Part shown: positions 41,523 through 63,165 of the stretch, one piece after another
How the letters are laid out: each line of letters begins with the position of its first letter
Numbering within the stretch: the stretch's first letter is position 1
Assembly: GCA_947501845.1 (NCBI GenBank)
Contig: CANMXP010000003.1
Coordinates: forward strand, 310,001-374,000
Source of the DNA: an uncultured Flavobacteriaceae bacterium
GTDB taxonomy: Bacteria > Bacteroidota > Bacteroidia > Flavobacteriales > Flavobacteriaceae
Length of the DNA: 64,000 bases
Reading direction: 5' to 3'
The notes under the pieces: generated by a model
Seen by the model: the letters and a program-made list of their open reading frames with translations, nothing else
Told to the model about the DNA's origin: nothing
Database searches by the model: none
Made by a program: the position numbers and the translations under genes

Positions 41523-41542
41523 AGTTAATTAATAATAAACAA

Positions 41543-42724
41543 TTAACCTTTCCAATACCTAATATCTTCATTATACATAGCATCTAACGACAGTTGAACA
41601 GCTCTCGCGGTATTGGCACCAGTAAAAACATTTGAAATAGGTTGTTTGTTTTCTAAAATAGAATCTCTAAAGTCTATTAATGCTTGTTTACTAGGGTCTA
41701 TATGAGATACTTTAATAGGGTAGCCCTTGCCTTGTAAGTGGCTATTTATAGTTGCTCCTGAAACACCATCAACATCTGCTATTTCTTTTTTGAATCCTTT
41801 TTCATAATATATCCAGGCCTTGGTGTAATCTAATAAAATGGTGCCTTTGCTTCCATGTATTTTTATTTGATAATTACCTAAAGCATTACTAGTTAAACAG
41901 GTGAATTTTGCTTTTACACCACTTGGGTATTCGTATAATAAATGAATGTTATCAAAGGTTTCCCTACCGTCTTTCCAATAATCAACACCACCAGTTCCCA
42001 TGATCTTTTTAGGATTCTCTCCTAAAACCCAGTGTACAAAATCAATTTGATGCGAGCAAAGCTCGGCAACCAGTCCTCCAGAATATTCTCTATACATACG
42101 CCAGTTGATGGCCCGTTCTAAAGAAGTGTCAGGGACAGGCCTTCTCCAGTTTCCATTTCTATTCCATTGACATTCAAAAGAAGTTATTTGTCCAATCTCA
42201 CCATTTTTCAACATATCGATCACATGTTTGTAGAGTCTGGAACTATGATATTGATGACCCGTTTGAAAAATTGTTTTCGAGTTTGAAGCTTTTTCGACAA
42301 GATTATTAATGCTAGCAAGCCCTTTTGCCATCGTTTTTTCACAATAGATATGCTTGCCAGCATCTAAAGCATCTATAGCTATGGCTGAATGTGTACTAAA
42401 TGGTGTTGCTATTAATACAGCATCAACATCTTTATTGTCTAATAGTTTTTTATAATTTTTATAAGCTTCAACTTTATTTGAAACTTTAGAAACTCCTTTT
42501 TCTAATCGGAAGGGTAAAATATCACAGACAGCAGATACATGTACCCCATCAATTTTGTTTAGTACAGGAATAAGTCCACCGCCTCTATCCCCCGTACCAA
42601 TAACTCCAATATTGATCATATCATTAGAGCCGAATTTTTTAGTGACAGCTCCTAAGGTAGCGGTTCCAGCAATAATTCCTGCTGATGCCATGCTGCTTTT
42701 TGTAATAAACTCTCTTCTTTTCAT
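41543..42724 (-). CDS. Gfo/Idh/MocA oxidoreductase with Tat-like signal
   Basis: A 393-residue NAD(P)-dependent sugar oxidoreductase. The N-terminus MKRREFITKSSMASAGIIAG has a twin-arginine motif (KRREF) and hydrophobic stretch, so it is probably exported folded with its cofactor, as in glucose-fructose oxidoreductase. Rossmann motif GVIGTGDRGGG, catalytic Lys in IYCEKTMAKG (EKT instead of the usual EKP), and AELCSHQIDFVHWVLG in the substrate domain. It is the last of three minus-strand genes (DUF1080 double-domain, Gfo, Gfo). Likely oxidises or reduces a sugar at C3 in the pathway described for the region; substrate unproven. Confidence 0.87.
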   Translation of the reverse strand: MKRREFITKSSMASAGIIAGTATLGAVTKKFGSNDMINIGVIGTGDRGGGLIPVLNKIDGVHVSAVCDILPFRLEKGVSKVSNKVEAYKNYKKLLDNKDVDAVLIATPFSTHSAIAIDALDAGKHIYCEKTMAKGLASINNLVEKASNSKTIFQTGHQYHSSRLYKHVIDMLKNGEIGQITSFECQWNRNGNWRRPVPDTSLERAINWRMYREYSGGLVAELCSHQIDFVHWVLGENPKKIMGTGGVDYWKDGRETFDNIHLLYEYPSGVKAKFTCLTSNALGNYQIKIHGSKGTILLDYTKAWIYYEKGFKKEIADVDGVSGATINSHLQGKGYPIKVSHIDPSKQALIDFRDSILENKQPISNVFTGANTARAVQLSLDAMYNEDIRYWKG

Positions 42725-42763
42725 TAGTTGTAATTTTGAATAACTGCTATTCCTTAAGTTATT

Positions 42764-44110
42764 TTATACTGGTTTTATTTCCCAACCTGGTTCATACTTT
42801 CTAGACCATAACTTCATGGCGTCACGATCGTAAATTCTACCAGTATCTTCATCTATATCAAAAGATTTATTAATTCTTGAACTAATATTGGCATAATGTG
42901 TTAGCATTTGACTAATAACCCCTTGCTCTATTGGCGAAGTTAACGATTCTTTTCCTCTTATAGCTTGAAAAAAGTTTACAGCATGTCTTGTGGAAAGACT
43001 TCCGCCACCACCAAGTGCGACACCATCTTCGTCTCCTTTCAAGATGTTGCTTTTTATCACTTTACCTTTCAGGTCGTACAATTTATAACCTGTTCTATCT
43101 ATAAATACCATACCTTTAGAACCATAAATTAAGGTGCCTCTTCCAGCGCCATATTTATTATAGCCATTTCTACTTTGTCCATCCCATTGAATGGTTGTGT
43201 TATTAGAAAATTTGAACGTAGCCAGCATAGTGTCATACATCTCCCATCCATCATTTTTATGTTGAAACTTTCCTGAATATACATCGACATGCTCAGGGTA
43301 TTTAACATTTAAAGCCCAACGGGCAATATCTAATTCGTGAGTCGCATTATTGCCTGTTTCTGCTGTCCCATAATCCCATCCATACCAATGCCAGTTGTAA
43401 TTCCAGGTATCGTGCATATAGGCTTTTCTTGGAGCTGGTCCCTGAAAAAGTTCCCAATCTAATCCTTCTGGCGGAGCTGCTTTTACAGGAATAGGTACTT
43501 TACCTCTAGAATTAGTATAAAATGCAACGGCTTTATAAACATCTCCAATAATACCATTATGGATGTCTTTAATAATTTCAGTAGACTCTAATGAGGATCG
43601 TTGCTGGTTCCCCATTTGTATTAATTTATTATATTTTTTTTGATAAGCAACAAGTAACTCGCCTTCTCTTGGGTTATGGCTACATGGCTTTTCTAGATAT
43701 ACATGCTTGTTAGCTTGCACGGCCATACATGCACCTGGCGCATGCCAATGGTCTGGTGTTGCCATAAAAACAGCATCTACTTTTTTGTCATCTAAAATAA
43801 CTCTAATATCATTTTCTAATTTTGGAGTATGGTCAATCAATTTTGAAAAAGAATTGGCTGCTTTTTCTCGTTGACTTTTCATAACATCGCATAAATACAT
43901 GAGTTCAATGTTATTTTTTTTATCAGAAATAGCGCCCTTAAATCCTCCTAGGCGTCTTCCTAAACCTTGAACAGCTATATGAATTCTATCATTAGCCCCT
44001 ATGATTCGTGAATAACTTTTAGCCGAAACATTTGTTACACTGCCTGTGAGTGTAACGCCAAGAGCTCCTGCTGATGCTTTTTTTAAAAAATCTCTTCTAT
44101 TCGAACTCAT
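42764..44110 (-). CDS. Gfo/Idh/MocA oxidoreductase with Tat-like signal
   Basis: A 448-residue member of the same family, with N-terminal twin-arginine motif SSNRRDFLKKASAGALGV. Rossmann pattern AVQGLGRRLGG, then MATPDHWHAPGACMA and the catalytic Lys in VYLEKPCSHNPREG. The C-terminal domain includes YDYGTAETGNNATHELDIAR-like sequence (WDYGTAETGNNATHELD). It is longer than the 393-residue paralogue downstream (39-base gap) and only distantly similar, closer to the 455-residue protein at 61798-63165. Putative periplasmic sugar dehydrogenase. Confidence 0.86.
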   Translation of the reverse strand: MSSNRRDFLKKASAGALGVTLTGSVTNVSAKSYSRIIGANDRIHIAVQGLGRRLGGFKGAISDKKNNIELMYLCDVMKSQREKAANSFSKLIDHTPKLENDIRVILDDKKVDAVFMATPDHWHAPGACMAVQANKHVYLEKPCSHNPREGELLVAYQKKYNKLIQMGNQQRSSLESTEIIKDIHNGIIGDVYKAVAFYTNSRGKVPIPVKAAPPEGLDWELFQGPAPRKAYMHDTWNYNWHWYGWDYGTAETGNNATHELDIARWALNVKYPEHVDVYSGKFQHKNDGWEMYDTMLATFKFSNNTTIQWDGQSRNGYNKYGAGRGTLIYGSKGMVFIDRTGYKLYDLKGKVIKSNILKGDEDGVALGGGGSLSTRHAVNFFQAIRGKESLTSPIEQGVISQMLTHYANISSRINKSFDIDEDTGRIYDRDAMKLWSRKYEPGWEIKPV

Positions 44111-44122
44111 TTATTATATTTT

Positions 44123-45526
44123 TTAATTAAATTCTCTAACTTTTATGCTTCTGTAGTGTACGGTATCTCCATGATCTTGAAGTAAGATATGTCCGCTAGC
44201 CCATTGTCCAAATTTTGGCCATTTTTTATATTTACTATAAGCTACAAGTGCTCTAAACATTTGCGAAGACCTATCATATTCTATTACTTTTTCATTGTTT
44301 AACCAATGCTCTACATGTGCCCCTTTAACAACAATTCTTGCCTTGTTCCAAGCGCCTATACCTTTAAATTGTTTGCTTCTTCCTTTTGTAGATAGGTTTT
44401 CAGCTGTAATTAAATCGTAAAGAGAACCTATCGTCCTATTACCATTAACACCAGCTTTTGCATCAGGGTGATTTTTATCGTCTAAAACTTGAAATTCGCA
44501 TCCTATGGCAGATCCAGCCCCTTTATTAAGTTCAGCATCTACAAAATATTTAATACCACTATTAGCTCCTTTTGTGATTTTGAAATCTAGTTCTAATTCG
44601 AAACTACTAAAAACTTTTTCGGTAACAATGTCTCCAGGACCAGTTGATTCAGCACCATCAGTGGCTAAAATAGTTAACTCACCATTTTCAATGTTCCAAC
44701 CAGATTGTGGGAAATGATCCAGCTTAACACCTCGCCACCCTTTAGATGTTTTTCCGTCCCAAAGCAAACGCCATCCATTATTTACTTCATTTTCTGTAAG
44801 CTTATTAATTAAATAACTCATCTCTTTTGCATCAGGGTCTAAAACCCAACGTTCTTTTTCTAAGTTATTTGTTTTAATTCTAATATTTCTCCATTTAATA
44901 TGTTTACCAGCATTCTTTTCATTATAAATACTGTGGACTTGTAATGCTATAAAACCTGATGATGTTAAATCATCAACTAAATTTGAGCATTGTATTCCGT
45001 TTATCCATGTTCTAATAGTAGAACCAATAGCTTCAACTCTGCACGTATTCCATACGCCATTTTTAAAAGCCTTACTGCCTTTTGGATTCAAAGATAGCGG
45101 GTATATCCAACCTCTTCTTCCTTCGTCATATACACCACCACTAAAAGCGCGAGCTGATGGATCTAGTTCAAATTGATAACCATGAACTTTACCTTTTTTA
45201 TAAGACTTAGAGCTGTTAGACCTAAATTGAACACCTGAATTGGTTGTGGGGTCTAAAAGAACTTCAAATTCTAGAATAAAATCACTGTAATTCTTTTCAG
45301 TACACAAAAAACTATTTGGTGTTTTATATTTTGTAGTGCCAATAATTTCACCATTTACTACTTTATAAGAAGCAGTTCCATTTAATTGTTTCCAACCAGT
45401 TAAGTTCTTTCCGTTAAAAAGGGATATCCACCCGTCTTGTGATACTTGCGAATTGGCACTAATGCCTACAAGACTCATTAAAAGAAAACTAGAAAAAAAA
45501 AGTAGTTTTGATTGTATTGGTTTCAT
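44123..45526 (-). CDS. Double DUF1080 (3-keto-disaccharide hydrolase) protein, secreted
   Basis: Started at the ATG at 45526 (MKPIQSKLLFFSSFLLMSLV), 467 residues with a signal peptide. The frame continues to 45556, but a palindromic operator lies at 45543-45554. Two DUF1080 domains in tandem: about 25-225 (GWISLFNGKNLTGWKQLNG, NSGVQFRSNSSKSYKKG) and about 255-465 (GWRLLWDGKTSKGWRGVK, NSGIKYFVDAELNKGAGS). The fold is a concanavalin-like beta sandwich. DUF1080 proteins cleave 3-keto-glycosides. The two domains differ and may have separate substrates or one may only bind. First gene of a three-gene minus-strand operon. Confidence 0.87.
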   Translation of the reverse strand: MKPIQSKLLFFSSFLLMSLVGISANSQVSQDGWISLFNGKNLTGWKQLNGTASYKVVNGEIIGTTKYKTPNSFLCTEKNYSDFILEFEVLLDPTTNSGVQFRSNSSKSYKKGKVHGYQFELDPSARAFSGGVYDEGRRGWIYPLSLNPKGSKAFKNGVWNTCRVEAIGSTIRTWINGIQCSNLVDDLTSSGFIALQVHSIYNEKNAGKHIKWRNIRIKTNNLEKERWVLDPDAKEMSYLINKLTENEVNNGWRLLWDGKTSKGWRGVKLDHFPQSGWNIENGELTILATDGAESTGPGDIVTEKVFSSFELELDFKITKGANSGIKYFVDAELNKGAGSAIGCEFQVLDDKNHPDAKAGVNGNRTIGSLYDLITAENLSTKGRSKQFKGIGAWNKARIVVKGAHVEHWLNNEKVIEYDRSSQMFRALVAYSKYKKWPKFGQWASGHILLQDHGDTVHYRSIKVREFN

Positions 45527-45542
45527 GTGTTTTTTATTTTTC

Positions 45543-45554
45543 GTGTACGTACAC
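45543..45554. promoter_or_regulatory. Palindromic operator at the start of the DUF1080/Gfo operon
   Basis: GTGTACGTACAC is a perfect 12-bp palindrome. It covers the predicted transcription start and touches the -7 element of the minus-strand promoter, the position of a repressor site. It lies 17 bases upstream of the start codon. The regulator is not identified in the window. Confidence 0.6.
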
Positions 45555-45586
45555 AAAAATACAAATATTTATAATAAAAATACAAA
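45554..45586 (-). promoter_or_regulatory. Promoter of the DUF1080/Gfo operon
   Basis: Minus strand: TTTG (45586-45583), 21 bases, then TATTTTTG (45561-45554), an exact TAnnTTTG. Confidence 0.65.
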
Positions 45587-45783: not shown

Positions 45784-47376
45784 ATGAGTACTACTTTTTT
45801 AGAAATTCCAGAAGCTTACAAAATAAAATCGCTATTGCATCAAAAAACCTACTTAGTTTCAGGAGAACTGAAACAATGGAAAGGTAATATGGCAGAAGTT
45901 TATTCAACTATTTCCTCAACCAAAGATTATAAACCAACCTTATTAGGAACGATTCCTCAGCTTACAGAAAAGGAAGCTTTAGAGGCGTTAAATTCAGCAT
46001 CAGAGGCATATGATAAAGGACAGGGTTTGTGGCCAACCATGAAGGTGGTAGATAGGATTGCTTGCATGGAAAAGTTTGTAAAACAAATGAAAACCAATAG
46101 AGAGGCTATTGTAAAACTTTTGATGTGGGAAATAGGGAAAAATCTTCCAGACTCTGAAAAAGAGTTTGATAGAACCATCGATTATATATATGATACAATT
46201 GAAGCTTATAAACAAATAGATAGAGACTCAGCGAAATTTGAAAAGAATGAAGGGGTGTATGCACACATACGTAGAGGGCCACTAGGTGTTGTTTTGTGTT
46301 TAGGACCTTATAATTATCCGTTAAATGAAACATTTACATTGCTCATTCCTGCGTTAATTATGGGTAATCCTGTAATTTTTAAACCAGCGAAACTAGGTGT
46401 ATTATTAATTTCACCGTTATTGGAAGCTTTTCAAAACAGTTTCCCAAAGGGTGTAGTAAATGTTATTTATGGTCGTGGTCGGGTATTGGCAACACCTATC
46501 ATGCAATCGGGCAAGATTGACGTATTAGCATTAATTGGTAATAGTAAATCTGCAAACGCTATTCAAAACAATCATCCAAAAAAGAATAGATTACGTTTGG
46601 TATTAGGCTTAGAAGCCAAAAACCCCGCAATTGTTTTACCTGATGCCGACTTAGATTTAGCCGTAAACGAATGTATTGCAGGTACATTGTCTTTTAATGG
46701 GCAACGTTGTACAGCTTTAAAAGTATTATATGTGCATGAATCTGTTGTAGATGATTTTAATAAACGATATGCAGCTAAAGTAGACGCGCTTAAGTTTGGG
46801 AACCCATGGGATTCTGATGTTAAATTAACACCACTTCCAGAAGTGAATAAACCCCCATATATTAAAGAGTTAATAGATGATGCGCTTGAAAAAGGAGCAA
46901 AAATATTAAATGATAAAGGCGGGAAAATTAGTAAGAATTTTATATTTCCAGCGGTCTTATATCCTGTTGATAAAAACATGCGAATATTTAATGAGGAACA
47001 ATTTGGCCCATTAATACCTATTGTTCCATTTACAGATATTGAAGAGCCATTAGACGATATGGCCGCCTCTAATTATGGACAACAGGTAAGTTTGTTTGGT
47101 AAAGATATCAATACATTATCACCATTAATAGATACATTGGTAAACTTGGTATGTCGCGTTAATTTAAATAGCTCTTGTCAAAGAGGACCAGATGTTTATC
47201 CATTTACAGGAAGAAAAGATTCTGCATTTAGTACTTTGAGTGTACATGACGCACTACGCTCTTTTTCAATAAGAACTTTTGTAGCATCAAAAGATAACGA
47301 TTATAATAATGCCATTTTAAAAGAGTTGTTAGAGAAAAAAACATCCAATTTTATAAGCACCGATTATATTTTATAA
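45784..47376 (+). CDS. gapN: NADP-dependent glyceraldehyde-3-phosphate dehydrogenase, non-phosphorylating (GapN-like)
   Basis: A 530-residue aldehyde dehydrogenase. Catalytic Cys309 in [10 protein letters not shown], general base Glu277 in [11 protein letters not shown], cofactor-loop [11 protein letters not shown] and KPAK. The length and the motif spacing fit the GapN branch, which oxidises glyceraldehyde 3-phosphate to 3-phosphoglycerate with NADP, bypassing ATP formation and making NADPH. A different aldehyde substrate cannot be excluded. It sits in the middle of the sugar-oxidation locus but in the opposite direction to its neighbours, and its link to that locus is unproven. Confidence 0.82.
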
Positions 47377-47422
47377 ACGGCATTTTATTATTTTTATGGC
47401 TCACAAAACAACATTTTTAGGT

Positions 47423-47932
47423 ATGAAGACATTTAAGTATTTGGTATTATCCTTTTTTTTAGTTTTACTAGTAGCCTGTGGTGGTAAGGAAGAAAAAAAG
47501 AAGGAAGGTTTTAGTTATGAAAAAAAGGAGGAAACTTCTAAGAGTACAGAGGCAAAAAACTCTAATGAAATTGTTATTTCTGGTGATGATTTAATGAAGT
47601 TTGATAAAACCGAAATTAAAGTAAAAGCAGGACAAAAAGTAAAAGTAACATTAAGACATAAAGGGAAATTAGATGTTAATGTTATGGGACATAATTTTGT
47701 GCTTCTTAAACAAGGTGTTGATGTAGCTGGGTTTGCAGCTAAGGCGGCTGTGGCTAAAGAGAATGAATACATACCAGAAAAGACAGAAGACGTTATAGCT
47801 TATACATCTTTAATTGGAGGTGGGCAAACGACATCTGTAGAGTTTGAAGCCCCTGCTGTTGGAACATACGATTTCTTATGTAGCTTTCCAGGACATTATG
47901 GTATGATGAAAGGGAAGTTTATAGTAGAATAA
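47423..47932 (+). CDS. Azurin, lipoprotein form
   Basis: Started at the ATG at 47423, 169 residues. A lipoprotein signal ends LLVACGG, then a Lys/Glu-rich spacer, then the blue-copper domain: copper ligands are the His in VMGHNFVLL and Cys, His and Met in FLCSFPGHYGMMKG, as in azurin. It is anchored in a membrane facing the periplasm and shuttles electrons. It follows gapN by 46 bases. I infer that it could accept electrons from periplasmic dehydrogenases; that it serves the GMC dehydrogenases of the locus is only a hypothesis. Electron acceptor partners are not visible. Confidence 0.9.
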   Translation: MKTFKYLVLSFFLVLLVACGGKEEKKKEGFSYEKKEETSKSTEAKNSNEIVISGDDLMKFDKTEIKVKAGQKVKVTLRHKGKLDVNVMGHNFVLLKQGVDVAGFAAKAAVAKENEYIPEKTEDVIAYTSLIGGGQTTSVEFEAPAVGTYDFLCSFPGHYGMMKGKFIVE

Positions 47933-47978: not shown

Positions 47979-48018
47979 AACGATCCTGTATGTGTAATAT
48001 CGCATGCAGGATTGTTTT
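47979..48018 (+). terminator. Terminator of the gapN-azurin unit
   Basis: CGATCCTGTATGTG (47981-47994) pairs with CGCATGCAGGATTG (48001-48014) over 14 positions including wobble pairs, with a TAATAT loop and a short T run. Confidence 0.75.
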
Positions 48019-48077
48019 ATAATAAACCCGACTTAACCTATAAACTAATATCCGCAAATTACCTCCAAATTAACTAT

Positions 48078-48620
48078 ATGAAAAATATAAATTTCATTAT
48101 TGTACTCTTTGTTATTCCTTTAATTGGGGCATCCCAAGGCTCAGATGAATTAATTCTAAAAATTAGAGCAGAATTCCAGCGTATCAACTCAAGTAAATAC
48201 TTAGAAAAAATTGAATTGTTCAATGATGATTTCATGGACTATAGAACCGACGGAGGAGGGCAGCTCACAGGTTTTTTTGAAAAAGAGCAATTAGTAAAAA
48301 TTACAGAATGGATAGGTCTTTCTCAGGGTACTTTAATAACCGATTATTACTTAAAGGATGGACATTTATTTTTTGCCTATGAACAAGAATATAAATTTAA
48401 AAATGTTGTTGATGAATCTGGCGAATGGATTGGTTTTAATACATCGGAAGAGGAAATTATATTTGAAGGGAGATACTATTTTAATAATCACGTACTCACT
48501 AAGAAGCTAATTAAAGGAGAGCAAATGTTCAAACAAAGTTTTGATCAGGCTGAGTTTTTAGAACATGCTAATTTAATTTATCAAGTATTACTGAAAAGAA
48601 AGTTGCCCAAGAAAGAATAA
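48078..48620 (+). CDS. Secreted protein of unknown function
   Basis: Started at the ATG at 48078, 180 residues; the frame is open further up to 48012 but that overlaps the terminator. Signal peptide KNINFIIVLFVIPLIGASQ. The mature part has alpha/beta stretches (LILKIRAEFQRINSSKYLEK, DYRTDGGGQLTGFFEKEQ, GHLFFAYEQEYKFKN) reminiscent of small secreted NTF2-like or DUF-type proteins of Bacteroidota, but I recognise no family. It is convergent with the TIM-barrel gene and 18 bases from its 3' end. Confidence 0.6.
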   Translation: MKNINFIIVLFVIPLIGASQGSDELILKIRAEFQRINSSKYLEKIELFNDDFMDYRTDGGGQLTGFFEKEQLVKITEWIGLSQGTLITDYYLKDGHLFFAYEQEYKFKNVVDESGEWIGFNTSEEEIIFEGRYYFNNHVLTKKLIKGEQMFKQSFDQAEFLEHANLIYQVLLKRKLPKKE

Positions 48621-49556: not shown

Positions 49557-49587
49557 CTTAATAGATTGTTCATCCAATGTGCCACTG

Positions 49588-53340: not shown

Positions 53341-53344
53341 AACC

Positions 53345-55223: not shown

Positions 55224-56261
55224 ATGAAAGCAAACATACAAGAAATCGAACCTTATGAATATGAAGCGGATGGTGTTGTTTATCATGCGGACACTTGTTT
55301 GCCATTAATTGATGCTTATAATCGTAATAAATTAAAATTTAAAGCACTTGCAAGACATACCTATCCAGGAGATAGGTTGGACGAAAACACGCTTGGACTC
55401 AATAGTATTGGGTATTGGGATGCTAACGAACCACAGGATTGGGGGTTGGATTGGCACCGAAATGAAGGAATAGAGTTTCATTTTTTAGAATCGGGTTCGA
55501 TGCCATACGCTCAAGAAAACAAAGAAGTTTTGTTAACTCCAAATCATTTAACAATTACGCGACCTTGGGAGGCTCATAAAGTAGGGAATCCATTTATAGG
55601 TATGGGGAAATTCTATTGGGTTATTATAGATTTGGGTGTTCGCAGGCCGCATCAAGATTGGGTTTGGCCAGATTGGATTACTTTAACGCCTTCAGATTTA
55701 ACAAGGCTTACCACTATTTTAAGGCAAAACGAAAAATCTATTTGGAAAACAGACCAGCGCATTCGAGATTGCTTCATGAGAATAAATAAAGCGGTAAACA
55801 CAGACGAGAAAGGTAATAATGCATCTAAAATAAGGTTGCTTGTTAACTATTTGTTGATTCTATTGCTTGATTTATTGAATACAGATGATATTGTTTTAAA
55901 TGAATCACTTACAGATAGTTCTAGGAGTGTAAAATTCTTCTTGAAAGAACTTGAAAAGAACCTTTCTGAGAATTGGACTATTGAGTTGATGGCACAGTCT
56001 GCCGGTGTAGGTTTGACACGATTTACGCACCATTGTAAACGGTTAACTAATTTAACCCCCATGCGCTATTTGACTATGAAACGCTTGGAAATGTCTAAAG
56101 AGGTGCTTCGGGAAAATCAAAACTTAACGATTGCAGAAGTGGCTTATATGTGCGGCTTTACCACAGGGCAGTATTTTGCTACGGTTTTTAAGAAACATGA
56201 AAAATGCTCACCTAATGAATATCGATTAAAATATACAGCCGATAGCTTACAGCCAGCCTAA
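55224..56261 (+). CDS. AraC-family transcriptional regulator
   Basis: A 345-residue regulator. The N-terminal half (about 1-200) is a cupin-like sensor, with RNEGIEFHFLESGSMPYAQE and LTITRPWEAHKVG. The C-terminal AraC/XylS DNA-binding domain covers about 245-340: MAQSAGVGLTRFTHHCKRLT, then YLTMKRLEMSKEVLRENQ, IAEVAYMCGFTTGQYFATVF and KCSPNEYR. It stands between the divergent GMC operon and the plus-strand TIM/MFS/Gfo genes, so it is the likely regulator of both, probably sensing an intermediate of the pathway. The 151-base upstream region holds an imperfect dyad TTCC/GGAA at about 55165-55187. Confidence 0.9.
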   Translation: MKANIQEIEPYEYEADGVVYHADTCLPLIDAYNRNKLKFKALARHTYPGDRLDENTLGLNSIGYWDANEPQDWGLDWHRNEGIEFHFLESGSMPYAQENKEVLLTPNHLTITRPWEAHKVGNPFIGMGKFYWVIIDLGVRRPHQDWVWPDWITLTPSDLTRLTTILRQNEKSIWKTDQRIRDCFMRINKAVNTDEKGNNASKIRLLVNYLLILLLDLLNTDDIVLNESLTDSSRSVKFFLKELEKNLSENWTIELMAQSAGVGLTRFTHHCKRLTNLTPMRYLTMKRLEMSKEVLRENQNLTIAEVAYMCGFTTGQYFATVFKKHEKCSPNEYRLKYTADSLQPA

Positions 56262-56395: not shown

Positions 56396-57352
56396 ATGAA
56401 ACGAAGAGATTTTGTTGTGAAAACAGCTTCAGCAAGTGCTGCATTGTCAATAATGGGTTTGTACGGATGCAAAAATTCCGAGAAAAAAGAAGAACCGTCT
56501 AATCAAGTTTCTAAAGAGTCCCCCTTGTTTTTTAAGATGTCCTTAGCCCAGTGGTCATTGCACCGTACCTTGTTTGCCAATAAAATGGACAATTTGGATT
56601 TTGCTGCGAAATCTAGAAGCTTTGGTTTGGAAGGTTTAGAATATGTAAATGGGTTTTTTAAAGATAAGGCTAAAGAGATGTCTTATCTAAAAGAAATGAA
56701 ACTAAGAGCCGATACTGAAGGGCAGCAAAATGTTTTAATTATGATTGATGGGGAAGGGATGCTTGCCAATGCAGATAATAATGAAAGACTTAAAGCTATT
56801 GAAAATCATTACAAATGGGTTGAGGCAGCTCATTTTTTAGGCTGTCATGCCATTCGAGTTAATTTGGCAGGTGGTGTAGATAAAAGTGAGGCCGTAAAAG
56901 CAAGTATTGATTCTTTAAATAAGCTTTCTGAATTTGCTAAAGGATCTGATATTAATGTGTTGGTTGAGAATCACGGTGGCTTTTCTTCAGATGGGAAGTG
57001 GATGACCGATGTGTTTTCTCAAATAGAAAATGAAAATTGTGGGACCCTACCAGATTTTGGAAATTTCTGTATAGAAAAGGACAAAGATGGTGGATGTATT
57101 GAGGCATATGATAAATATCAAGGTATTAAAGAGCTGTTGCCTTATGCTAAAGCGGTAAGTGCAAAATCCTATAATTTTAATGAACAAGGAGAGGATACCG
57201 TTATAGATTATCTTAAGATGATGGAAATGGTTAAAAAATCGGGTTATACAGGATTTGTTGGTATTGAATATGAAGGCAATATACTGCCTGAAGAAAAAGG
57301 CATTGAATTAACTAGGGATTTGCTGGTACGTGTTGGTAAACAACTTGCTTAA
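56396..57352 (+). CDS. Exported TIM-barrel sugar isomerase/epimerase-like lipoprotein
   Basis: A 318-residue protein. The start MKRRDFVVKTASASAALSIM has a twin-arginine motif, and MGLYGC is a lipobox, so it is probably a Tat-exported lipoprotein. The xylose-isomerase-like barrel includes LAQWSLHRTLFANKMDNLDF, GCHAIRVNLAGGVDKSEA, a metal-ligand Glu in VLVENHGGFSSDG, DFGNFCIEKDKDGG, and a C-terminal Glu in GFVGIEYEGNILPEE. No phosphate site is expected outside the cell, so the substrate should be a free (keto-)sugar. The MFS gene begins 25 bases after its stop. Confidence 0.83.
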   Translation: MKRRDFVVKTASASAALSIMGLYGCKNSEKKEEPSNQVSKESPLFFKMSLAQWSLHRTLFANKMDNLDFAAKSRSFGLEGLEYVNGFFKDKAKEMSYLKEMKLRADTEGQQNVLIMIDGEGMLANADNNERLKAIENHYKWVEAAHFLGCHAIRVNLAGGVDKSEAVKASIDSLNKLSEFAKGSDINVLVENHGGFSSDGKWMTDVFSQIENENCGTLPDFGNFCIEKDKDGGCIEAYDKYQGIKELLPYAKAVSAKSYNFNEQGEDTVIDYLKMMEMVKKSGYTGFVGIEYEGNILPEEKGIELTRDLLVRVGKQLA

Positions 57353-57376: not shown

Positions 57377-58585
57377 ATGGAACAGATTAATAAAAATAGG
57401 TTGTTTTTAGCATCTTGTATTTCTTTAATTGTGACTGCTATGACCTTTGCTATTAGAGCAGGTATCTTGGGGCAGTTGGGAACAGATTTTGCATTAACAG
57501 ATACGCAGCTTGGATGGGTAAATAGTATGGCGTTTTTAGGTTTTCCTATGGCTACAATTTTTGGAGGACTGGTTTATAACTCGCTGGGTGCGAGAAAATT
57601 AATGATCATTGCTTTTTTATCTCATTTATTGGGAATACTGCTTACCATTTTTGCAGGTGGTTTCTGGACACTTTTAATTTCAACCTTTTTTATAGGGTTT
57701 GCCAATGGTTCTGTAGAAGCAGCCTGCAATCCTTTAATTGCGGATATGTATACTACAAACCGAACAACTATGCTGAATAAGTTCCATGTTTGGTTTCCTG
57801 GAGGTATCGTGATTGGGGCTTTGGTGTCTAAGTTTATGACAGACTTTGGGATGAGTTGGCAATTGCAAATAGCTAGTATGTTAATTCCAACGTTACTTTA
57901 TGGGTTTTTATTTTTTGGACAAAAGTTTCCGAAAAACGAAAATATTGTTTCCGATACAAAAATGAACATAAAAAGTTTGCTCTCTCCATTATTCATTTTT
58001 ATGGTGATTTGTATGACGTTAACAGCGACAACCGAATTAGGAACACAGCAATGGATTGAAAAAATTCTAGGAAATACAGGGGCTAGTCCGATGTTAATTT
58101 TAGCTATGGTTACAGGGTTAATGGCTGTTGGTCGTTATTTTGCTGGTCCAATAATTCATAAACTGAATCCACCAGGAGTATTATTAATATCTGCTATTAT
58201 AGCTGCTGTAGCTATATATCTTATGAGTTCGGCAACAGGAGGAATGGTATATGTTTCTGCAATATTATTTGCAATAGGTGTATGCTATTTTTGGCCAACT
58301 ATGATTGGTTTTGTTAGTGAATATATACCGAAAACAGGCGCATTAGGAATGTCATTAATTGGTGGAGCAGGTATGTTTGCAACCAGTATTTGGCAACCCG
58401 TAATTGGTTCCTGGTTAGATAATGCAAAATTGAAGGCTATTGATTCTGGAGTTTCTGTAGAACAAGCAGAGTTAATTGCTGGACAAGAAACATTGAGCAA
58501 TATTGCTATTTTTCCAATGGTATTAGTCCTGTTATTTGGGATTCTATATACACAACGAAAAAAGTTAGAAGCAAAAAGAGTTTAA
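57377..58585 (+). CDS. MFS transporter, sugar-permease type
   Basis: A 402-residue membrane protein with about 12 hydrophobic segments. Motif-like features are SMAFLGFPMATIFGGLVYNS, GARKLMIIAFLSHLLGILL and GFANGSVEAACNPLIADMY, and a long central loop near residue 190 (FPKNENIVSDTKMN). It resembles fucose/hexose:H+ symporters (FHS) of Bacteroidota. It lies between TIM-barrel and Gfo genes, so it probably brings the cleaved product, for example a 3-keto-hexose, into the cytoplasm. It ends 8 bases before the next gene. Confidence 0.85.
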   Translation: MEQINKNRLFLASCISLIVTAMTFAIRAGILGQLGTDFALTDTQLGWVNSMAFLGFPMATIFGGLVYNSLGARKLMIIAFLSHLLGILLTIFAGGFWTLLISTFFIGFANGSVEAACNPLIADMYTTNRTTMLNKFHVWFPGGIVIGALVSKFMTDFGMSWQLQIASMLIPTLLYGFLFFGQKFPKNENIVSDTKMNIKSLLSPLFIFMVICMTLTATTELGTQQWIEKILGNTGASPMLILAMVTGLMAVGRYFAGPIIHKLNPPGVLLISAIIAAVAIYLMSSATGGMVYVSAILFAIGVCYFWPTMIGFVSEYIPKTGALGMSLIGGAGMFATSIWQPVIGSWLDNAKLKAIDSGVSVEQAELIAGQETLSNIAIFPMVLVLLFGILYTQRKKLEAKRV

Positions 58586-58593: not shown

Positions 58594-59739
58594 ATGGCAA
58601 GAAAATTAAGAATGGGAATGATTGGTGGAGGCACTGGATCATTCATAGGGGATGTACACAGAAGAGCAGCCTCGATTGATGGCATGATAGATTTGGTATG
58701 TGGTGCTTTTAGTAGTAGTGCAGAAAAATCGATAGCATCAGGGAAAGATTTATTTCTTTCTGAAGATAGATGTTATGGGAGTTATGAGGAAATGATTTTA
58801 AAAGAAAAAGAACTTCCCGAAGATATACGAATGGATTTTGTGGCCATTGTAACACCAAACCATATGCATTTTCCGCCAGCAAAAATGGCTTTAGAGAATG
58901 GATTTCATGTGGTTTGCGATAAACCAATGACTCTAACATTAGATGAGGCAATTGCCTTAGAAAAAATAGTTGACGAAAGCGGAAAATTATTCGCGCTTAC
59001 ACATAATTATACAGGACATCCTTTAGTGAAACAAGCCAAAGCGATGGTTGCTAACGGTGATTTAGGGAATATTAGAAAAATACAAGTCCAATACTTACAA
59101 GGTTGGCTGTCTACGGCAGTTGAACAAACAGGACAAAAACAAGCCTCTTGGCGAGTAGACCCAAAACGTTCAGGAATTGGAGGTGCTTTAGGTGATATTG
59201 GAACGCATGCTGAAAACTTGGTAGAATATATTACAGGCTTAAAAATTGATGAATTAGCTGCCGATTTAGGCAAGTTCGGAGCAGGTAGAGTTTTAGATGA
59301 TGATGGTAATTTATTGCTTCGTATGGAAAATGATGCTAAAGGAACCATGTCTATTTCTCAAATTGCTTTAGGAGAAGAGAATAATTTAGCGATTAAAGTA
59401 TATGGTGAAAAAGGGAGTTTAGAATGGCATCAGGAAAATCCAAATCAGTTAATAACACGTTGGCTTGAAAACCCTGTTACGGTTTTTACACCAAACGGAA
59501 ACAATTTATATCCAGAGGCATTAAATGTATCCAGAATTCCTGCGGGTCATCCAGAAGGTTACTTGGAGGCTTTTGCTACGATATACAAAAATTTCGCAAC
59601 GCATTTAATGGCTGTTTTAAATGGAAAAACTATTGATAAACCAGATTATCCTACAGCTAAAGATGGTGTTCGAGGCATAAAGTTTATTTATGCCGCTGTT
59701 GAGAGTGATAAAAACAATTCAACTTGGACAAAAATTTAA
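58594..59739 (+). CDS. Cytoplasmic Gfo/Idh/MocA oxidoreductase
   Basis: A 381-residue family member without a signal peptide (MARKLRMGMIGGGTGSFIGD). The Rossmann motif is GMIGGGTGS, and the catalytic Lys lies in VVCDKPMTLTLDE (DKP variant). Substrate-domain features are GGALGDIGTHAENLVEYIT. Because it is cytoplasmic and follows the permease gene by 8 bases, the simplest role is reduction of an imported 3-keto-sugar to the common hexose. The other three Gfo proteins of the locus carry export signals. Confidence 0.87.
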   Translation: MARKLRMGMIGGGTGSFIGDVHRRAASIDGMIDLVCGAFSSSAEKSIASGKDLFLSEDRCYGSYEEMILKEKELPEDIRMDFVAIVTPNHMHFPPAKMALENGFHVVCDKPMTLTLDEAIALEKIVDESGKLFALTHNYTGHPLVKQAKAMVANGDLGNIRKIQVQYLQGWLSTAVEQTGQKQASWRVDPKRSGIGGALGDIGTHAENLVEYITGLKIDELAADLGKFGAGRVLDDDGNLLLRMENDAKGTMSISQIALGEENNLAIKVYGEKGSLEWHQENPNQLITRWLENPVTVFTPNGNNLYPEALNVSRIPAGHPEGYLEAFATIYKNFATHLMAVLNGKTIDKPDYPTAKDGVRGIKFIYAAVESDKNNSTWTKI

Positions 59740-59835: not shown

Positions 59836-60888
59836 ATGAAAACAATAAAAGGACCTGCAGTTTTTTTGGCACAATTTGCAGGAAGTGAAGCCCCGTTTAA
59901 CTCTTTGGATGGGATGTGTAAATGGGCAGCAGATTTAGGATATAAAGGCATTCAAATTCCAACATGGGAATCTAGTTTAATAGATATAGAAAAAGCAGCA
60001 GAAAGTCAGACGTATTGTGATGATTTAAAAGGGAAAGTGGCGTCTTATGGATTAGAAATCACAGAATTATCTACACACTTGCAAGGACAATTGGTAGCTG
60101 TTAACCCAGCTTACGATACGATGTTTGATGGTTTTGCACCCGAACATGTTAGAAATAATCCAAAAGCTAGAACAGAATGGGCGATAGATTTTGTGAAAAA
60201 ATCTGGAACTGCCAGTGGAAGATTAGGTTTAAAGGCTCACGCTACTTTTTCTGGAGCTTTAATGTGGCATACCATGTATCCGTGGCCACAACGACCTAAA
60301 GGACTAGTAGAAATGGGTTTTAAAGAATTAGCAAACCGTTGGGTTCCTATATTGAATCATTTTGACGAACATGGTGTTGATGTATGTTATGAAATTCATC
60401 CTGGGGAAGATCTTCATGATGGAATCACATTTGAACGTTTTTTAGAAGCAACAAATAATCACAAGAGAGCTAATATACTTTATGACCCTAGTCACTATGT
60501 ACTTCAACAGTTAGATTATTTAACTTTTATAGATCATTACCATGAGCGTATTAAAGCTTTTCATGTTAAAGATGCAGAATTTAATCCAACAGGAAAACAA
60601 GGTGTTTATGGTGGATATGCCGATTGGAAAGATAGAGCAGGGCGTTTTAGATCATTAGGAGATGGTCAGGTAGATTTTAAAGCGATTTTTTCAAAATTAA
60701 CGAAGTATGAATGCGATTTCTGGGCTGTTATGGAATGGGAATGTTGTATAAAATCTTCTGAGCAAGGAGCGAGAGAAGGTGCGCCCTTTATTCAAAAACA
60801 TATTATTGAAGCTGCTGAAAAAGGATTTGATGATTTTGCTGGTGGTGATGTTGATGAAGTGCAATTAAAGAAAATACTTGGGCTATAG
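59836..60888 (+). CDS. Cytoplasmic TIM-barrel sugar isomerase/epimerase-like enzyme
   Basis: A 350-residue xylose-isomerase-like barrel with no signal (MKTIKGPAVFLAQFAGSEAP). Probable metal ligands: Glu in DVCYEIHPGEDLHDG, Asp in NILYDPSHYVLQQL, His in IKAFHVKDAEFNP, and Glu in VMEWECCIKSS. These are the positions expected in the dicarboxylate/His centre of this superfamily. Encoded 96 bases downstream of the cytoplasmic Gfo gene and before a DUF1080 lipoprotein. It may isomerise the imported keto-sugar or its reduced form. The 96-base gap contains an odd GC-richer stretch (about 59785-59820). Confidence 0.85.
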   Translation: MKTIKGPAVFLAQFAGSEAPFNSLDGMCKWAADLGYKGIQIPTWESSLIDIEKAAESQTYCDDLKGKVASYGLEITELSTHLQGQLVAVNPAYDTMFDGFAPEHVRNNPKARTEWAIDFVKKSGTASGRLGLKAHATFSGALMWHTMYPWPQRPKGLVEMGFKELANRWVPILNHFDEHGVDVCYEIHPGEDLHDGITFERFLEATNNHKRANILYDPSHYVLQQLDYLTFIDHYHERIKAFHVKDAEFNPTGKQGVYGGYADWKDRAGRFRSLGDGQVDFKAIFSKLTKYECDFWAVMEWECCIKSSEQGAREGAPFIQKHIIEAAEKGFDDFAGGDVDEVQLKKILGL

Positions 60889-60979: not shown

Positions 60980-61786
60980 TTGAATATCAGAGAAACAACT
61001 TTGATTGTGTTAGCGACTTGTCTGTTTGCCTGTACTAATAATAAAGGTAAAGTAGCCGAGGAGCCTATCGAGACAAAACCAAAAGTAGAACTTAAGGAAC
61101 CTACAGATCCTAAAGAAACTGAACTTTACAAACCAGTACCTCCAACAGTCAACCCTACAGGGCAACACGGCGTTCCAAGTGATGCTATCGTGTTGTTTAA
61201 TGGTGAAAACTTAGATAATTGGGTGCATACAAAAGATGGTAGTCCAGTACAATGGGTTTTAAATGATGATGGCTCCATGACAGTTAAGGATAAGTCTGGA
61301 GATATTCAAACAAAACAAAAATTCGATTGTATACAGTTACATATAGAATGGCGATCTTCATCAGAAAAAAGAGCGAGTGGTCAGAATAGAAGTAATAGCG
61401 GTGTTTTTCTTCAAGAACGCTATGAAGTGCAAGTTTTAGATAATAATGATAACGATACGTATGTTAACGGTCAGGTAGGGTCTATTTATAAACAGTCAAT
61501 TCCTTTAGCAAAAGCATCGGTGCCGACTGGAGAATGGAATGTTTATGATATTATTTATCATGCTCCAGAATTCAATTCGGAAGGTGATAAAACAAAATCA
61601 GCAACCATTACAATATTGCATAATGGTATTTTAATTCAAGACCATTATGAAATAAAAGGTACGACACCATATATTGGTTGGCCTAAAAATAATCCACACG
61701 GTAAGGCTGCATTAAAGTTACAGGATCATGGTGATAATAGTGGTGTAAGTTACCGAAATATTTGGGTTCGTGAATTAAAAAATTAA
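60980..61786 (+). CDS. DUF1080 lipoprotein, TTG start
   Basis: A 268-residue lipoprotein starting at a TTG (60980). No ATG is available before the lipobox LATCLFAC (lipidated Cys at 18). A Pro/Thr/Glu-rich spacer of about 40 residues precedes the DUF1080 domain: VLFNGENLDNWVHTKDG, QLHIEWRSSSEKRAS, NSGVFLQERYEVQVLDN, NPHGKAALKLQDHGDNSG. The fold and the conserved QDHGD resemble other 3-keto-disaccharide hydrolases. Outer-membrane or periplasmic. It ends 11 bases before the last Gfo gene. Confidence 0.85.
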   Translation: MNIRETTLIVLATCLFACTNNKGKVAEEPIETKPKVELKEPTDPKETELYKPVPPTVNPTGQHGVPSDAIVLFNGENLDNWVHTKDGSPVQWVLNDDGSMTVKDKSGDIQTKQKFDCIQLHIEWRSSSEKRASGQNRSNSGVFLQERYEVQVLDNNDNDTYVNGQVGSIYKQSIPLAKASVPTGEWNVYDIIYHAPEFNSEGDKTKSATITILHNGILIQDHYEIKGTTPYIGWPKNNPHGKAALKLQDHGDNSGVSYRNIWVRELKN

Positions 61787-61797
61787 ACACTTAAGTT

Positions 61798-63165
61798 ATG
61801 TCAAATTTATCAAGACGGTCTTTTTTGAAATCCGCATCAGTGGCTTCAGCTGGAGTATTAATAATACCTAGTTTATTAAGCTTTTCACCTAATAGCAAAT
61901 TAAATATAGCTGTTATTGGTGTTGGGCATAGAGCGGGATATAATATGAGGCAAGTAGCAAAAGGAAACAATATTGTGGCTTTATGCGATGTTGATGATAA
62001 TTTTTTGCAAAAGGCAGCTAAGTCATTTCCCAATGCTAAGACATTTAAAGATTTTAGGGTCATGTTGGATAAGGTGGCCAATGAAATTGATGCAGTGGTT
62101 ATCTCGACTCCAGATCATACGCATTTTCCAGCAACAATGGCAGCTATGCAATTGGGTAAACATGTATTCGTAGAAAAACCATTGGCACATAATATATGGG
62201 AACTACGTACTTTAAAAAAAGCTGCTAAGTACTATAAAATCGTATCTCAAATGGGGAACCAGGGGCACACAACTCATGGTATTCGCTTAGTAAAAGAATG
62301 GTATGATACTGGTGTTTTAGGAGATGTTAAAGAAGTTCATGCATGGCGTGGTGTAAATACATTTAGACCAGGCTATTATTTTACCAAGCCAGCTAGTTTT
62401 CCTCCTCCTAAAAATTCTACTCCAAATAATTTAGATTGGGACTTATGGCAGGGACCAGTAACGGAAAGACCCTTTAATAAAGCCTATGCTCCAAAATCTT
62501 GGCGTGGTTTTTATGATTACGGAAGTGGTCAGTTAGGTGATTGGGCTTGTCATACTATGGATGCGCCTTATTGGGCATTAAATTTGGGGCAACCCACCAA
62601 AGTAAAAGGAGAAATACCTGAAGGCAGTTTTAATGATCGAAATTTTATGCCGGATTCTTCTACGGTTACTTATAAATTTCCTAAACGGGGGACGAAACCC
62701 TCTGTAACTTTAAAATGGCACGAAGGTTTTAGTGCTCCCAATATTAAAATAAGACCAGAATGGGGTGCTAGTAAGTTGCCTGCAAATGGCGGTATGATTA
62801 TGATTGGAAGCAAAAATACACTTATTACAGGTGCCAGACCAGAGCAACCAAAATTGTTGGTTCCTGAAGAAGAATGGCAGACATTTTTAGCAAATGCGCC
62901 AGAGCAAACCATTCCTAGAATTGAAGAAAATAATCCACATAAAGAATGGATAGATGCTATAAAAAATGAAACATTGCCAGGGTCTAATTTTGATTATGCA
63001 GCAGATTTGACCGAAATGGCTCTTGTAGGTGTTATTGCACAGCGTTTTGGTGGTACTGTACGATATGATGCGAAAAAAATGAAGATAAAAAATCGTAAAG
63101 AATTAAATGCATACATTAAAGAACCAGTAAGAGATGGCTGGGCTTATGGGGAGAATCTTTGGTAA
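61798..63165 (+). CDS. Exported Gfo/Idh/MocA oxidoreductase, last gene of the operon
   Basis: A 455-residue protein with Tat-like N-terminus SNLSRRSFLKSASVASAGVL. Rossmann motif AVIGVGHRAGYNMRQ, STPDHTHFPATMA, catalytic Lys in VFVEKPLAHN, later MGNQGHTTHGIRLVKEW and YDYGSGQLGDWACHTMD. Close in length and motifs to the 448-residue protein at 42764-44110. It probably acts on a sugar in the periplasm with a bound cofactor. A 21-bp perfect terminator stem follows at 63222-63267. Confidence 0.88.
   Translation: MSNLSRRSFLKSASVASAGVLIIPSLLSFSPNSKLNIAVIGVGHRAGYNMRQVAKGNNIVALCDVDDNFLQKAAKSFPNAKTFKDFRVMLDKVANEIDAVVISTPDHTHFPATMAAMQLGKHVFVEKPLAHNIWELRTLKKAAKYYKIVSQMGNQGHTTHGIRLVKEWYDTGVLGDVKEVHAWRGVNTFRPGYYFTKPASFPPPKNSTPNNLDWDLWQGPVTERPFNKAYAPKSWRGFYDYGSGQLGDWACHTMDAPYWALNLGQPTKVKGEIPEGSFNDRNFMPDSSTVTYKFPKRGTKPSVTLKWHEGFSAPNIKIRPEWGASKLPANGGMIMIGSKNTLITGARPEQPKLLVPEEEWQTFLANAPEQTIPRIEENNPHKEWIDAIKNETLPGSNFDYAADLTEMALVGVIAQRFGGTVRYDAKKMKIKNRKELNAYIKEPVRDGWAYGENLW

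Follow-up and report, generated by a model that had tools for sequence, protein, structure and literature searches.

A gene cluster for probable non-hydrolytic breakdown of a glycoside in an uncultured Flavobacteriaceae bacterium

Gene content and clustering of the locus

The window, that is, the whole 64,000-nucleotide stretch analysed here (contig CANMXP010000003.1 of assembly GCA_947501845.1), contains a 21.6-kb locus of 19 genes, which begins at position 41543 and not at 41526, as a sequence-only reading had placed it. We scanned these genes against Pfam at an E-value of 0.001, leaving out the antisense ORFs 46572-46979 and 59007-59348. The scan returned four Gfo/Idh/MocA oxidoreductases, three PF06439 (DUF1080) proteins with four domains between them, three PF01261 barrels, two GMC proteins, two PF13618 (subunit 3) proteins, one AraC-family regulator and one MFS permease. 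All these counts agree with the sequence-only reading, which had nevertheless overlooked an aldehyde dehydrogenase, an azurin and an ORF (48012..48620, plus strand) that matches nothing in Pfam or NCBIfam at E 0.001. It had also reported the absence of SusC/SusD, classical glycoside hydrolases and cytochrome c, and Pfam agrees, with zero matches to any of them among the 19 genes at E 0.001; the SusC/SusD pair expected of a polysaccharide utilisation locus is therefore missing.

To judge the clustering, we assumed a uniform spread of each family over the 5.37-Mb genome. Four of the ten genomic places with PF06439 (nine of the ten above cut-off) lie inside the locus against 0.04 expected, as do both PF13618 places (0.008 expected), three of the four above-cut-off PF01261 matches (0.016 expected; seven matches overall) and 4/12 PF01408 places (0.05 expected). 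Given these counts, the clustering is far in excess of chance.

For comparison we used related loci, the 80 best out of 585 as selected with GMCb, and labelled their genes by best BLAST match. GfoA (41543..42724, minus strand) and GfoB (42764..44110, minus strand), both Gfo/Idh/MocA oxidoreductases by Pfam with a twin-arginine motif, form an accessory module, orthologs above 60% identity being found in two and three of these 80 loci, respectively. The AraC-family regulator (55224..56261, plus strand; Pfam), divergent from GMCa and with a cupin-like part under the Pfam cut-off, occurs in 18 of the 80 and may regulate the cluster. GfoD (61798..63165, plus strand), another twin-arginine Gfo oxidoreductase, is related to the BT2158 glycoside 3-dehydrogenase: it is the best BT2158-like protein of the locus and scores 241 bits against PDB 8tdf, while its 372.8 bits against NF058561 fall far under the cut-off of 750, so that it does not qualify as a member. 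TIM1 (48639..49577, minus strand; Pfam) is a twin-arginine xylose-isomerase-like barrel resembling hydroxypyruvate isomerase, as judged from NCBIfam (below cut-off) and PDB matches.

Predicted oxidation, cleavage and reduction

Pfam assigns GMCb (51023..52705, minus strand) and GMCa (53345..55072, minus strand) to the GMC family, and both are predicted FAD glycoside 3-dehydrogenases, 71% identical to each other. GMCb has no signal peptide and carries a Cx5Cx3C motif at residue 221; fructose dehydrogenase aligns with it over the full length, with three Cys and the catalytic His and Asn at matching positions. The PF13618 proteins S3b (50411..51016, minus strand) and S3a (52723..53382, minus strand) are twin-arginine lipoproteins. 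A LacABC-type dehydrogenase is thus represented by a GMC subunit with the catalytic and cluster residues and, from Pfam and the N-termini, by a small subunit with a twin-arginine motif. LacB of LacABC is a cytochrome, and no cytochrome c gene accompanies the two pairs among the 19 genes scanned. Family and residues fit oxidation at C3, which we infer for both pairs.

TIM3 (59836..60888, plus strand), a single-copy gene in this genome, matches the crystallised 2-hydroxy-3-keto-glucal hydratase (PDB 8ro4) over its full length with 568 bits and 237/350 identical residues (68%). Its assignment as a cytoplasmic hydratase is strong, and a candidate for the hydration step of an oxidation-elimination-hydration-reduction pathway can be named from sequence alone. 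The neighbouring GfoC (58594..59739, plus strand; 407 bits against PDB 3v5n) is a Gfo oxidoreductase in which we looked for an N-terminal export signal and found none; it is probably a cytoplasmic 3-keto-glucose reductase. GfoC adjoins TIM3 in plasmid cassettes as well, and it is 52-54% identical to the Gfo proteins of plasmid regions L134, L135 and L138; beyond the nearest relatives, many proteins labelled GfoC-like are just 38-42% identical to it. The sugar intermediate is probably carried by the MFS permease (57377..58585, plus strand; Pfam). A permease of another, nucleoside-symporter type occurs in 45 of the best 80 of 585 loci, as judged from a scan of one of these permeases.

Could the cluster instead degrade a cyclitol or other polyol by an inositol-type pathway, the alternative that the sequence-only reading had itself named as a refutation? 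TIM3 does match IolE weakly and the Gfo proteins IolG weakly, but every iol match is far under the model cut-off (60 of 290 bits for TIM3 with IolE; at most 102.5 of 355 with IolG), and the hydratase, at 568 bits, is a far better match to TIM3 than IolE at 40. We know of no role for DUF1080 proteins in inositol pathways. An inositol pathway is rejected on the model and IolE scores, and we regard polyol degradation as highly improbable.

The cleavage step probably falls to the DUF1080 proteins. DUFb (49588..50397, minus strand; Pfam) is a lipoprotein and, judging by its structural model, a probable 3-keto-glycoside eliminase/hydratase. A fold search with this model returned 9fbe, 8v31 and 8tda at ranks 1-4 and 8rr2 at rank 6, all titled as 3-keto-glycoside eliminase/hydratase or 3-keto-2-hydroxy-glucal hydratase; each title is borne by one of the two nearest structures. 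The similarity of DUFb to characterised DUF1080 structures amounts to only 18-20% identity and TM scores of 0.50-0.56. DUFc (60980..61786, plus strand; DUF1080 by Pfam), a lipoprotein by eye and also a probable eliminase/hydratase, shares 45-50% identity with its DUF1080 counterparts in the three plasmid regions L136-L138. The third protein, DUF2x (44123..45556, minus strand), has two PF06439 domains by Pfam and export judged by eye; it scores 568 bits against PDB 4jqt (titled BT3469), and its listed start codon is TTG, with an ATG 10 codons further in.

The 68% identity of TIM3 with a crystallised hydratase and the titles borne by the neighbours of the DUFb model make beta-elimination, with subsequent hydration of 2-hydroxy-3-keto-glucal, the most likely mode of cleavage, rather than plain hydrolysis. 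According to a different and rather unlikely scenario, the DUF1080 proteins hydrolyse the 3-keto-glycoside directly, and TIM3 just rescues glucal formed in a side reaction. Pfam does name the family 3-keto-disaccharide hydrolase, and a 3'-ketolactose hydrolase was proposed for Caulobacter in the part of Price et al. consulted (PMC9007349). However, more recent family structures bear eliminase/hydratase titles, one of them containing bound 2-hydroxy-3-keto-glucal according to its PDB title, and TIM3, in those of the best 80 of 585 loci that have it, is conserved at 74-98% identity.

Two other barrels were considered for the elimination. TIM2 (56396..57352, plus strand; Pfam), a twin-arginine lipoprotein, has invariant E191-N-H193, D220 and E291 in its alignment, and its model matches the fold of 4ovx first and then that of DgpB-C. 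The usual metal-ligand His of such barrels is apparently missing from TIM2 and its relatives, with Ser255 invariant in 23/23, and an eliminase role for TIM2 is therefore doubtful. An OGE-type eliminase barrel was rejected: a 252-aa barrel with an HNH motif, which neighbours the hydratase of a Rhizobium plasmid, had no BLAST match among the genes of the window at E 1e-4. This barrel stood in for AtOGE in the comparison, being taken as an OGE ortholog by its size, place and HNH motif.

Overall, the locus is very probably a catabolic cluster that breaks down a glycoside without hydrolases, by oxidation, beta-elimination, hydration and reduction. Such an interpretation draws on features read from the DNA: gene families, N-terminal export signals, the TIM3 assignment, the catalytic and cluster residues of the GMC proteins and the conservation of the set. 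The earlier scheme of C3 oxidation, cleavage and reduction fits the same families and the TIM3 and DUFb matches. N-terminal signals assign the oxidation and cleavage proteins to the periplasm and the hydration and reduction proteins to the cytoplasm, with the MFS permease between. In the periplasm, GMCa and GMCb, co-exported with S3a and S3b, would oxidise the sugar at its C3 hydroxyl and hand the electrons, via a cysteine cluster of 3Fe-4S type, to a carrier in the periplasm, either azurin or a cytochrome c encoded elsewhere. The 3-keto group would then enable the DUF1080 lipoproteins, perhaps together with TIM2, to release the aglycone in a beta-elimination that yields 2-hydroxy-3-keto-glucal or, once hydrated, 3-keto-glucose. 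After uptake of this product by the MFS permease, TIM3 would hydrate the glucal to 3-keto-glucose, and GfoC would reduce the latter to glucose. GfoD, and possibly GfoA and GfoB, may oxidise further glycosides in the periplasm.

Azurin and the electron acceptor

The azurin lipoprotein (47396..47932, plus strand) belongs to TIGR02695 (108.5 bits, cut-off 105.1) and is the only plastocyanin/azurin-family match of the genome, at a single PF00127 place. It follows the aldehyde dehydrogenase (45784..47376, plus strand; Pfam), which is perhaps an ancestral neighbour and not a pathway gene; the order ilv-ALDH-azurin is present in several relatives. We tentatively propose that, in this branch of the Flavobacteriaceae, the flavin 3-dehydrogenase may pass electrons to lipid-anchored azurin, which would replace the cytochrome c of LacABC. 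On balance, it is somewhat probable that azurin is merely an inherited neighbour serving general respiration, and that the electrons are taken up by quinone or an unlinked cytochrome c, the pathway being otherwise unchanged.

In eight of the 16 family genomes with both genes, our own included, no more than 3 kb separates azurin from subunit 3, against 0.05 expected at random, and azurin adjoins GMC or DUF1080 genes in at least three different neighbourhoods, which speaks against mere inheritance. This linkage could also reflect inherited gene order, and in one relative (G036) the ilv-azurin order is retained in a stretch without a GMC gene. Wherever the azurin and subunit 3 genes are at most 10 kb apart, which is the case in 10 genomes, they converge; therefore, they do not form one operon, and azurin is ruled out as an operon partner of GMC. 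Among 149 genomes sampled from the class, five have both a stand-alone azurin (at least 90 bits) and subunit 3, and the two are linked in our genome alone; they are unlinked in G124, a member of the same family, and in G099, G169 and G204, which belong to two other families.

Among the best 80 of 585 loci, 21 have azurin, 10 a small cytochrome c, none both and 49 neither, the last figure favouring an unlinked acceptor. The zero overlap (P 0.04) is uncorrected for relatedness, and we do not take it as proof of mutual exclusion; the cytochrome count excludes a 746-aa CxxCH ORF in L013, where azurin is also present, and unrelated- or spurious-looking CxxCH ORFs. Some other cassettes, namely those of nine Aquimarina loci and of the Hymenobacter and Xanthomonas plasmids, include a cytochrome c gene, one hint that azurin may take its place here. 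Another hint comes from a protein resembling a beta-propeller and encoded next to DUF1080 genes: in one relative its C-terminus is a cytochrome c, while three others have an azurin-like domain in it. Our genome encodes a 46% identical homologue of the GMC-adjacent cytochrome c of Aquimarina, a possible unlinked acceptor, but it is encoded on another contig, as part of a nitrous-oxide-reductase cluster. In favour of azurin as acceptor, a lipoprotein tether is common to azurin and a cytochrome c of this genome. Azurin is an acceptor of a PQQ alcohol dehydrogenase in the consulted part of a review (PMC8348568); our literature search, with most subscription papers outside its reach, turned up no GMC sugar dehydrogenase for which azurin is reported as the acceptor.

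Recurrence of the core and known systems

The core recurs among related loci: in the best 80 of 585, subunit 3 is present in 80, TIM2 in 78, a GfoC-like gene in 74, any DUF1080 gene in 73 and TIM3 (above 70% identity) in 65. Hymenobacter and Xanthomonas sacchari plasmids carry the core too, and Croceicoccus has it minus DUF1080. In five of the six plasmid regions examined (Proteobacteria, Hymenobacter), the TIM3 hydratase is 63-70% identical.

The Bacteroides BT2156-BT2159-type glycan pathway, reportedly described in Nature in 2024, is said to combine a DUF1080 eliminase/hydratase with a Gfo glycoside 3-dehydrogenase. Our locus has probable counterparts of both, judging by the title of 8tda and by GfoD and NCBIfam names, whereas its main oxidant would be a GMC flavoenzyme. 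GlycDH of Agrobacterium tumefaciens is a GMC flavoenzyme too. The A. tumefaciens GlycDH/AtOGE/AtHYD/Gfo operon, an experimental precedent for the oxidation-elimination-hydration-reduction logic, shares with our locus a dehydrogenase with a twin-arginine partner, a glucal hydratase and a Gfo oxidoreductase; in contrast, as far as the excerpted source goes (PMC10628242), the flavobacterial locus has DUF1080 proteins in place of the OGE-like barrel, exports oxidation and cleavage and has two GMC pairs. The LacABC lactose system of Caulobacter and Pedobacter likewise joins a LacABC-type dehydrogenase with DUF1080, while our cluster has azurin instead of a cytochrome c gene. Within the sections of PMC9007349 consulted, mutant fitness effects are given for Caulobacter (genes of LacABC and DUF1080) and for Pedobacter (a LacABC-type dehydrogenase), and none of the Pedobacter DUF1080 genes has a lactose phenotype, which counts against our preferred interpretation. 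The levoglucosan pathway LgdA-B1-B2-C is a second experimental precedent with the same four-step logic; it starts with levoglucosan dehydrogenase, and the consulted portion of PMC7676230 names neither GMC nor DUF1080 among its four genes. GfoC scores 122 bits against the levoglucosan dehydrogenase model (cut-off 650).

Recurrence of the core within the Flavobacteriaceae and on proteobacterial and Hymenobacter plasmids makes the locus a further instance of a pathway type already known from other bacteria. Its unusual detail is that the gene for a copper protein stands where some relatives carry a cytochrome gene; if azurin were indeed the acceptor, copper would here take the place of haem in a chain that oxidises sugars, a concrete example of such a replacement. 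Judging by the core cassette, and most of all by the hydratase, glycoside breakdown without hydrolysis appears to be widespread and easy to recognise by this enzyme.

Gene content and organization of the locus

The locus at 41543–63165 comprises 19 genes in the ORF listing, a set that excludes two antisense ORFs of more than 100 aa, left unscanned. Pfam and NCBIfam bore out the gene list of the sequence-only reading (Gfo/Idh/MocA oxidoreductases, DUF1080 proteins, xylose-isomerase-like barrels, GMC/subunit 3 pairs, an AraC regulator and an MFS permease), and they added an aldehyde dehydrogenase, an azurin and one ORF without a family (48012–48620). With these libraries, none of the 19 genes matched SusC/SusD, a classical glycoside hydrolase or a cytochrome c. 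By coordinate, the minus-strand group GfoA-GfoB-DUF2x comes first, followed by the aldehyde dehydrogenase, the azurin and the family-less ORF on the plus strand. Next come TIM1-DUFb-S3b-GMCb-S3a-GMCa on the minus strand, with GMCa transcribed first, and finally, on the plus strand, AraC and then TIM2-MFS-GfoC-TIM3-DUFc-GfoD. Both main units are transcribed outward from the 151 bp that separate GMCa and AraC.

Lying within positions 310001–374000 of contig C3, the locus makes up 0.4% of the 5.37 Mb genome. It nevertheless holds four of the ten DUF1080 places of the genome (nine of the ten over the cut-off), both subunit 3 genes, three of the four above-cut-off xylose-isomerase-like barrels and four of the 12 Gfo places. 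Such clustering of gene families is more than chance. Elsewhere in the window, 29566–32418 encodes a protein of 950 aa that has leucine-rich repeats as well as a WGR domain.

A predicted route through 3-keto intermediates

TIM3 (59836–60888) aligned over its full length with PDB 8ro4, a 2-hydroxy-3-keto-glucal hydratase that we take to be the Agrobacterium enzyme AtHYD (568 bits, 237 of 350 residues identical). Judged by sequence, this match is the decisive assignment in the locus; it supports and sharpens the earlier interpretation that a glycoside is oxidized at C3 and cleaved and the product reduced. TIM3 is also unusually conserved for a catabolic gene, with 63–70% identity between Bacteroidota and Proteobacteria copies.

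GMCb, one of the two FAD dehydrogenases, aligns through residues 4–554 with fructose dehydrogenase. A Cx5Cx3C motif lies at residue 221 in GMCb and 232 in GMCa; in the alignment, the GMCb cysteines coincide with those of fructose dehydrogenase, which presumably hold a 3Fe-4S cluster. His495 of GMCb aligns with the residue mutated in PDB 8k6j (H1147A) and Asn538, as read from the alignment, with the residue differing in PDB 8xcn; the neighbouring N1146 of fructose dehydrogenase is Ile in GMCb.

DUFb gave no strong matches in the sequence search, being too diverged. Its structure model (pLDDT 82.6) matched the DUF1080 structures 9fbe, 8v31 and 8tda (ranks 1–4) and 8rr2 (rank 6), with TM 0.50–0.56 and 18–19% identity, all titled as 3-keto-glycoside eliminase/hydratase or 3-keto-2-hydroxy-glucal hydratase; rank 5 was the uncharacterised 3u1x. 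For the TIM2 model (pLDDT 88.7), the first match was 4ovx, of unassigned function, followed by DgpB-C, a C-glycoside deglycosidase, at 20% identity. TIM2 residues E191, H193, D220 and E291 were invariant in 23 of 23 sequences, but a Ser stands at the expected position of one barrel metal ligand. TIM1 is hydroxypyruvate-isomerase-like, scoring under the cut-off of that model. The nearest PDB match of GfoC was 3v5n, whose function is unnamed, and GfoD is the locus protein closest to BT2158, the Bacteroides glycoside 3-dehydrogenase (373 bits against a cut-off of 750).

Export signals were read from N-termini by a script pattern and by eye. Twin-arginine motifs lie near the start of S3a, S3b, TIM1, TIM2, GfoA, GfoB and GfoD, and the script found a lipoprotein cysteine in S3a, S3b, TIM2, DUFb and the azurin. 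By eye, DUFc and DUF2x also look exported, and DUFc probably has a lipoprotein cysteine that escaped the script. We did not regard two further script flags, RR at residue 22 of GfoC and a Cys in MFS, as signals. An N-terminal signal is lacking in GMCa, GMCb, GfoC and TIM3; co-export of GMC proteins with subunit 3 is known for related enzymes, and GMCa and GMCb presumably travel in this way. Because the N-terminal signals split the proteins, oxidation and cleavage are predicted outside and hydration and reduction inside, with MFS carrying the product inward.

The A. tumefaciens operon described by Bitter et al. (2023, PMC10628242) encodes the flavoenzyme GlycDH, oxidizing C3; AtOGE, eliminating the aglycone to yield 2-hydroxy-3-keto-glucal; AtHYD, which preliminary evidence assigns to hydration of this product; and a Gfo protein reducing 3-keto-glucose. 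The levoglucosan pathway follows the same four steps (PMC7676230). Since the pathway itself was known before, as were LacABC-type dehydrogenases with DUF1080 in Bacteroidetes (PMC9007349), the cluster is a further example of a known pathway type.

Conservation in relatives and on plasmids

A GMCb scan confirmed at least 585 relatives, the best 80 of which were kept for locus comparison. Most bear Flavobacteriaceae names and two the label Cyclobacteriaceae; among those with a name, Flavivirga amylovorans is nearest (90%). Genes were scored by best BLAST label within ~10 kb, some loci ending at contig ends. Among these best 80 loci, S3 was found in 80, TIM2 in 78, GfoC-like genes (38–92% identity) in 74, any DUF1080 in 73 (DUFb in 31), TIM3 at >70% identity in 65, TIM1 at >50% in 21 and AraC in 18. 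At >60% identity, GfoB and DUF2x occurred in three loci and GfoA and GfoD in two, the low GfoD count arising partly because the compared flank ends near this gene.

The MFS gene (57377–58585) shares 47% identity with its counterpart in the nearest relative (L011), compared with 78–98% for the other shared genes. Identity was 87–90% in five other relatives and 64% on a Pseudoalteromonas plasmid. By these sequence comparisons, MFS is probably a replaced permease. A nucleoside-symporter-type permease (one member scanned) stands in its place in 45 of the best 80 relatives.

Of 352 plasmid records with a hydratase match, 301 showed 60–80% identity. Six plasmid regions were opened, with gene presence judged only within the stretch shown. 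The Hymenobacter plasmid carries GMC, S3, DUF1080, GfoC, TIM3, a nucleoside permease and cytochrome c, and that of Xanthomonas sacchari the same set, its Gfo only 28% identical to GfoC. GMC, S3 (by annotation), GfoC and TIM3, with no DUF1080 in the stretch, were found in Croceicoccus; TIM3, GfoC, MFS, DUF1080 and a distant GMC (30%) with S3 in Pseudoalteromonas. The Rhizobium stretch has TIM3, GfoC, another Gfo and a barrel like the β-eliminase OGE, with no GMC, and the Catenovulum stretch GMC, S3, DUF1080, a TIM1-like barrel and a PVC-type haem-binding protein, with no TIM3.

Azurin linkage and candidate electron carriers

No plastocyanin/azurin-family match other than the azurin (47396–47932) was found in the genome. 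With a threshold of at least 90 bits, set by us, for stand-alone azurins, 60 sampled family genomes yielded subunit 3 in 29, azurin in 24 and both in 16, our own included. The two genes lie within 3 kb in eight of these 16 (0.05 expected) and within 10 kb in ten (0.18 expected), one being an interrupted subunit 3 fragment. They are 39 kb apart in G006 and on separate contigs in five genomes (G004, G013, G030, G031, G052). All ten linked pairs are convergent and therefore do not form one operon.

Comparison of 15 azurin flanks, in which neighbours not belonging to the window's gene set were identified by eye, gave at least three distinct settings. In one, azurin adjoins ilv genes, together with GMC in G044, G017, G024, G034 and G049, together with DUF1080 in G051 and on its own in G036. 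In another, it adjoins a thioesterase- or EamA-like group, accompanied by GMC in G012 and G021 and by DUF1080 alone in G030. In G006, it precedes a propeller-like protein and a DUF1080-PA14 protein, the latter coming first; in G007, G013, G027 and G031, azurin has none of these neighbours. A 149-genome class sample contained both genes (azurin at ≥90 bits) in five genomes: linked in our own and unlinked in G124, of the same family, G099, G169 and G204. In one more genome, G201, a long ORF ~10 kb from subunit 3 contains a weak azurin-like domain (46.7 bits). Overall, the two genes are strongly linked within the family and unlinked in the three genomes seen outside it, and inherited gene order can account for part of this linkage.

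Among the best 80 of at least 585 relatives, 21 loci have an azurin, ten a small cytochrome c and 49 neither. The cytochrome immediately adjoins GMC on the same strand in nine Aquimarina loci; in L089, it lies on the other strand, with its start 2.8 kb from that of GMC. In G006, the propeller-like protein (locus L115, 10984–12954) ends in a cytochrome c domain just below the Pfam cut-off (21.0 against 21.3 bits), with CVACH present. Its counterparts at 42–44% identity in L123 (7587–9623), L028 (18415–20370) and L039 (18228–20258) end in an azurin-like domain, recognized by Pfam in L123 and by BLAST and ligand-spacing pattern in L028 and L039. Only these four came from 132 loci; all adjoin a DUF1080 protein, which Pfam identifies as DUF1080-PA14 in L115 and L123.

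A homologue of the Aquimarina cytochrome (46% identity) in our own genome adjoins a Sec-type nitrous-oxide reductase (TIGR04246, 933 bits). This cluster (L124, 7203–12071) consists of an Rrf2-like regulator (by eye), the cytochrome c, NosZ (TIGR04246) and a NosL-like protein (by eye). The locus azurin and this cytochrome (G000:C2:363743–364249; L124 7756–8256) have in common the tether CGGKEEKKK(E/Q)GFSYEKK. A DNA pattern for the tether core matched four places in the genome (two for the reversed-pattern control), and only the azurin and the cytochrome matches encode such lipoproteins. By eye, another tether, containing TIG, is common to the Aquimarina cytochromes and some azurins. The shared tethers are possibly a docking or exchange module, and the observations on both carriers hint that copper and haem proteins are interchangeable, with putative electron transfer from GMC to either.
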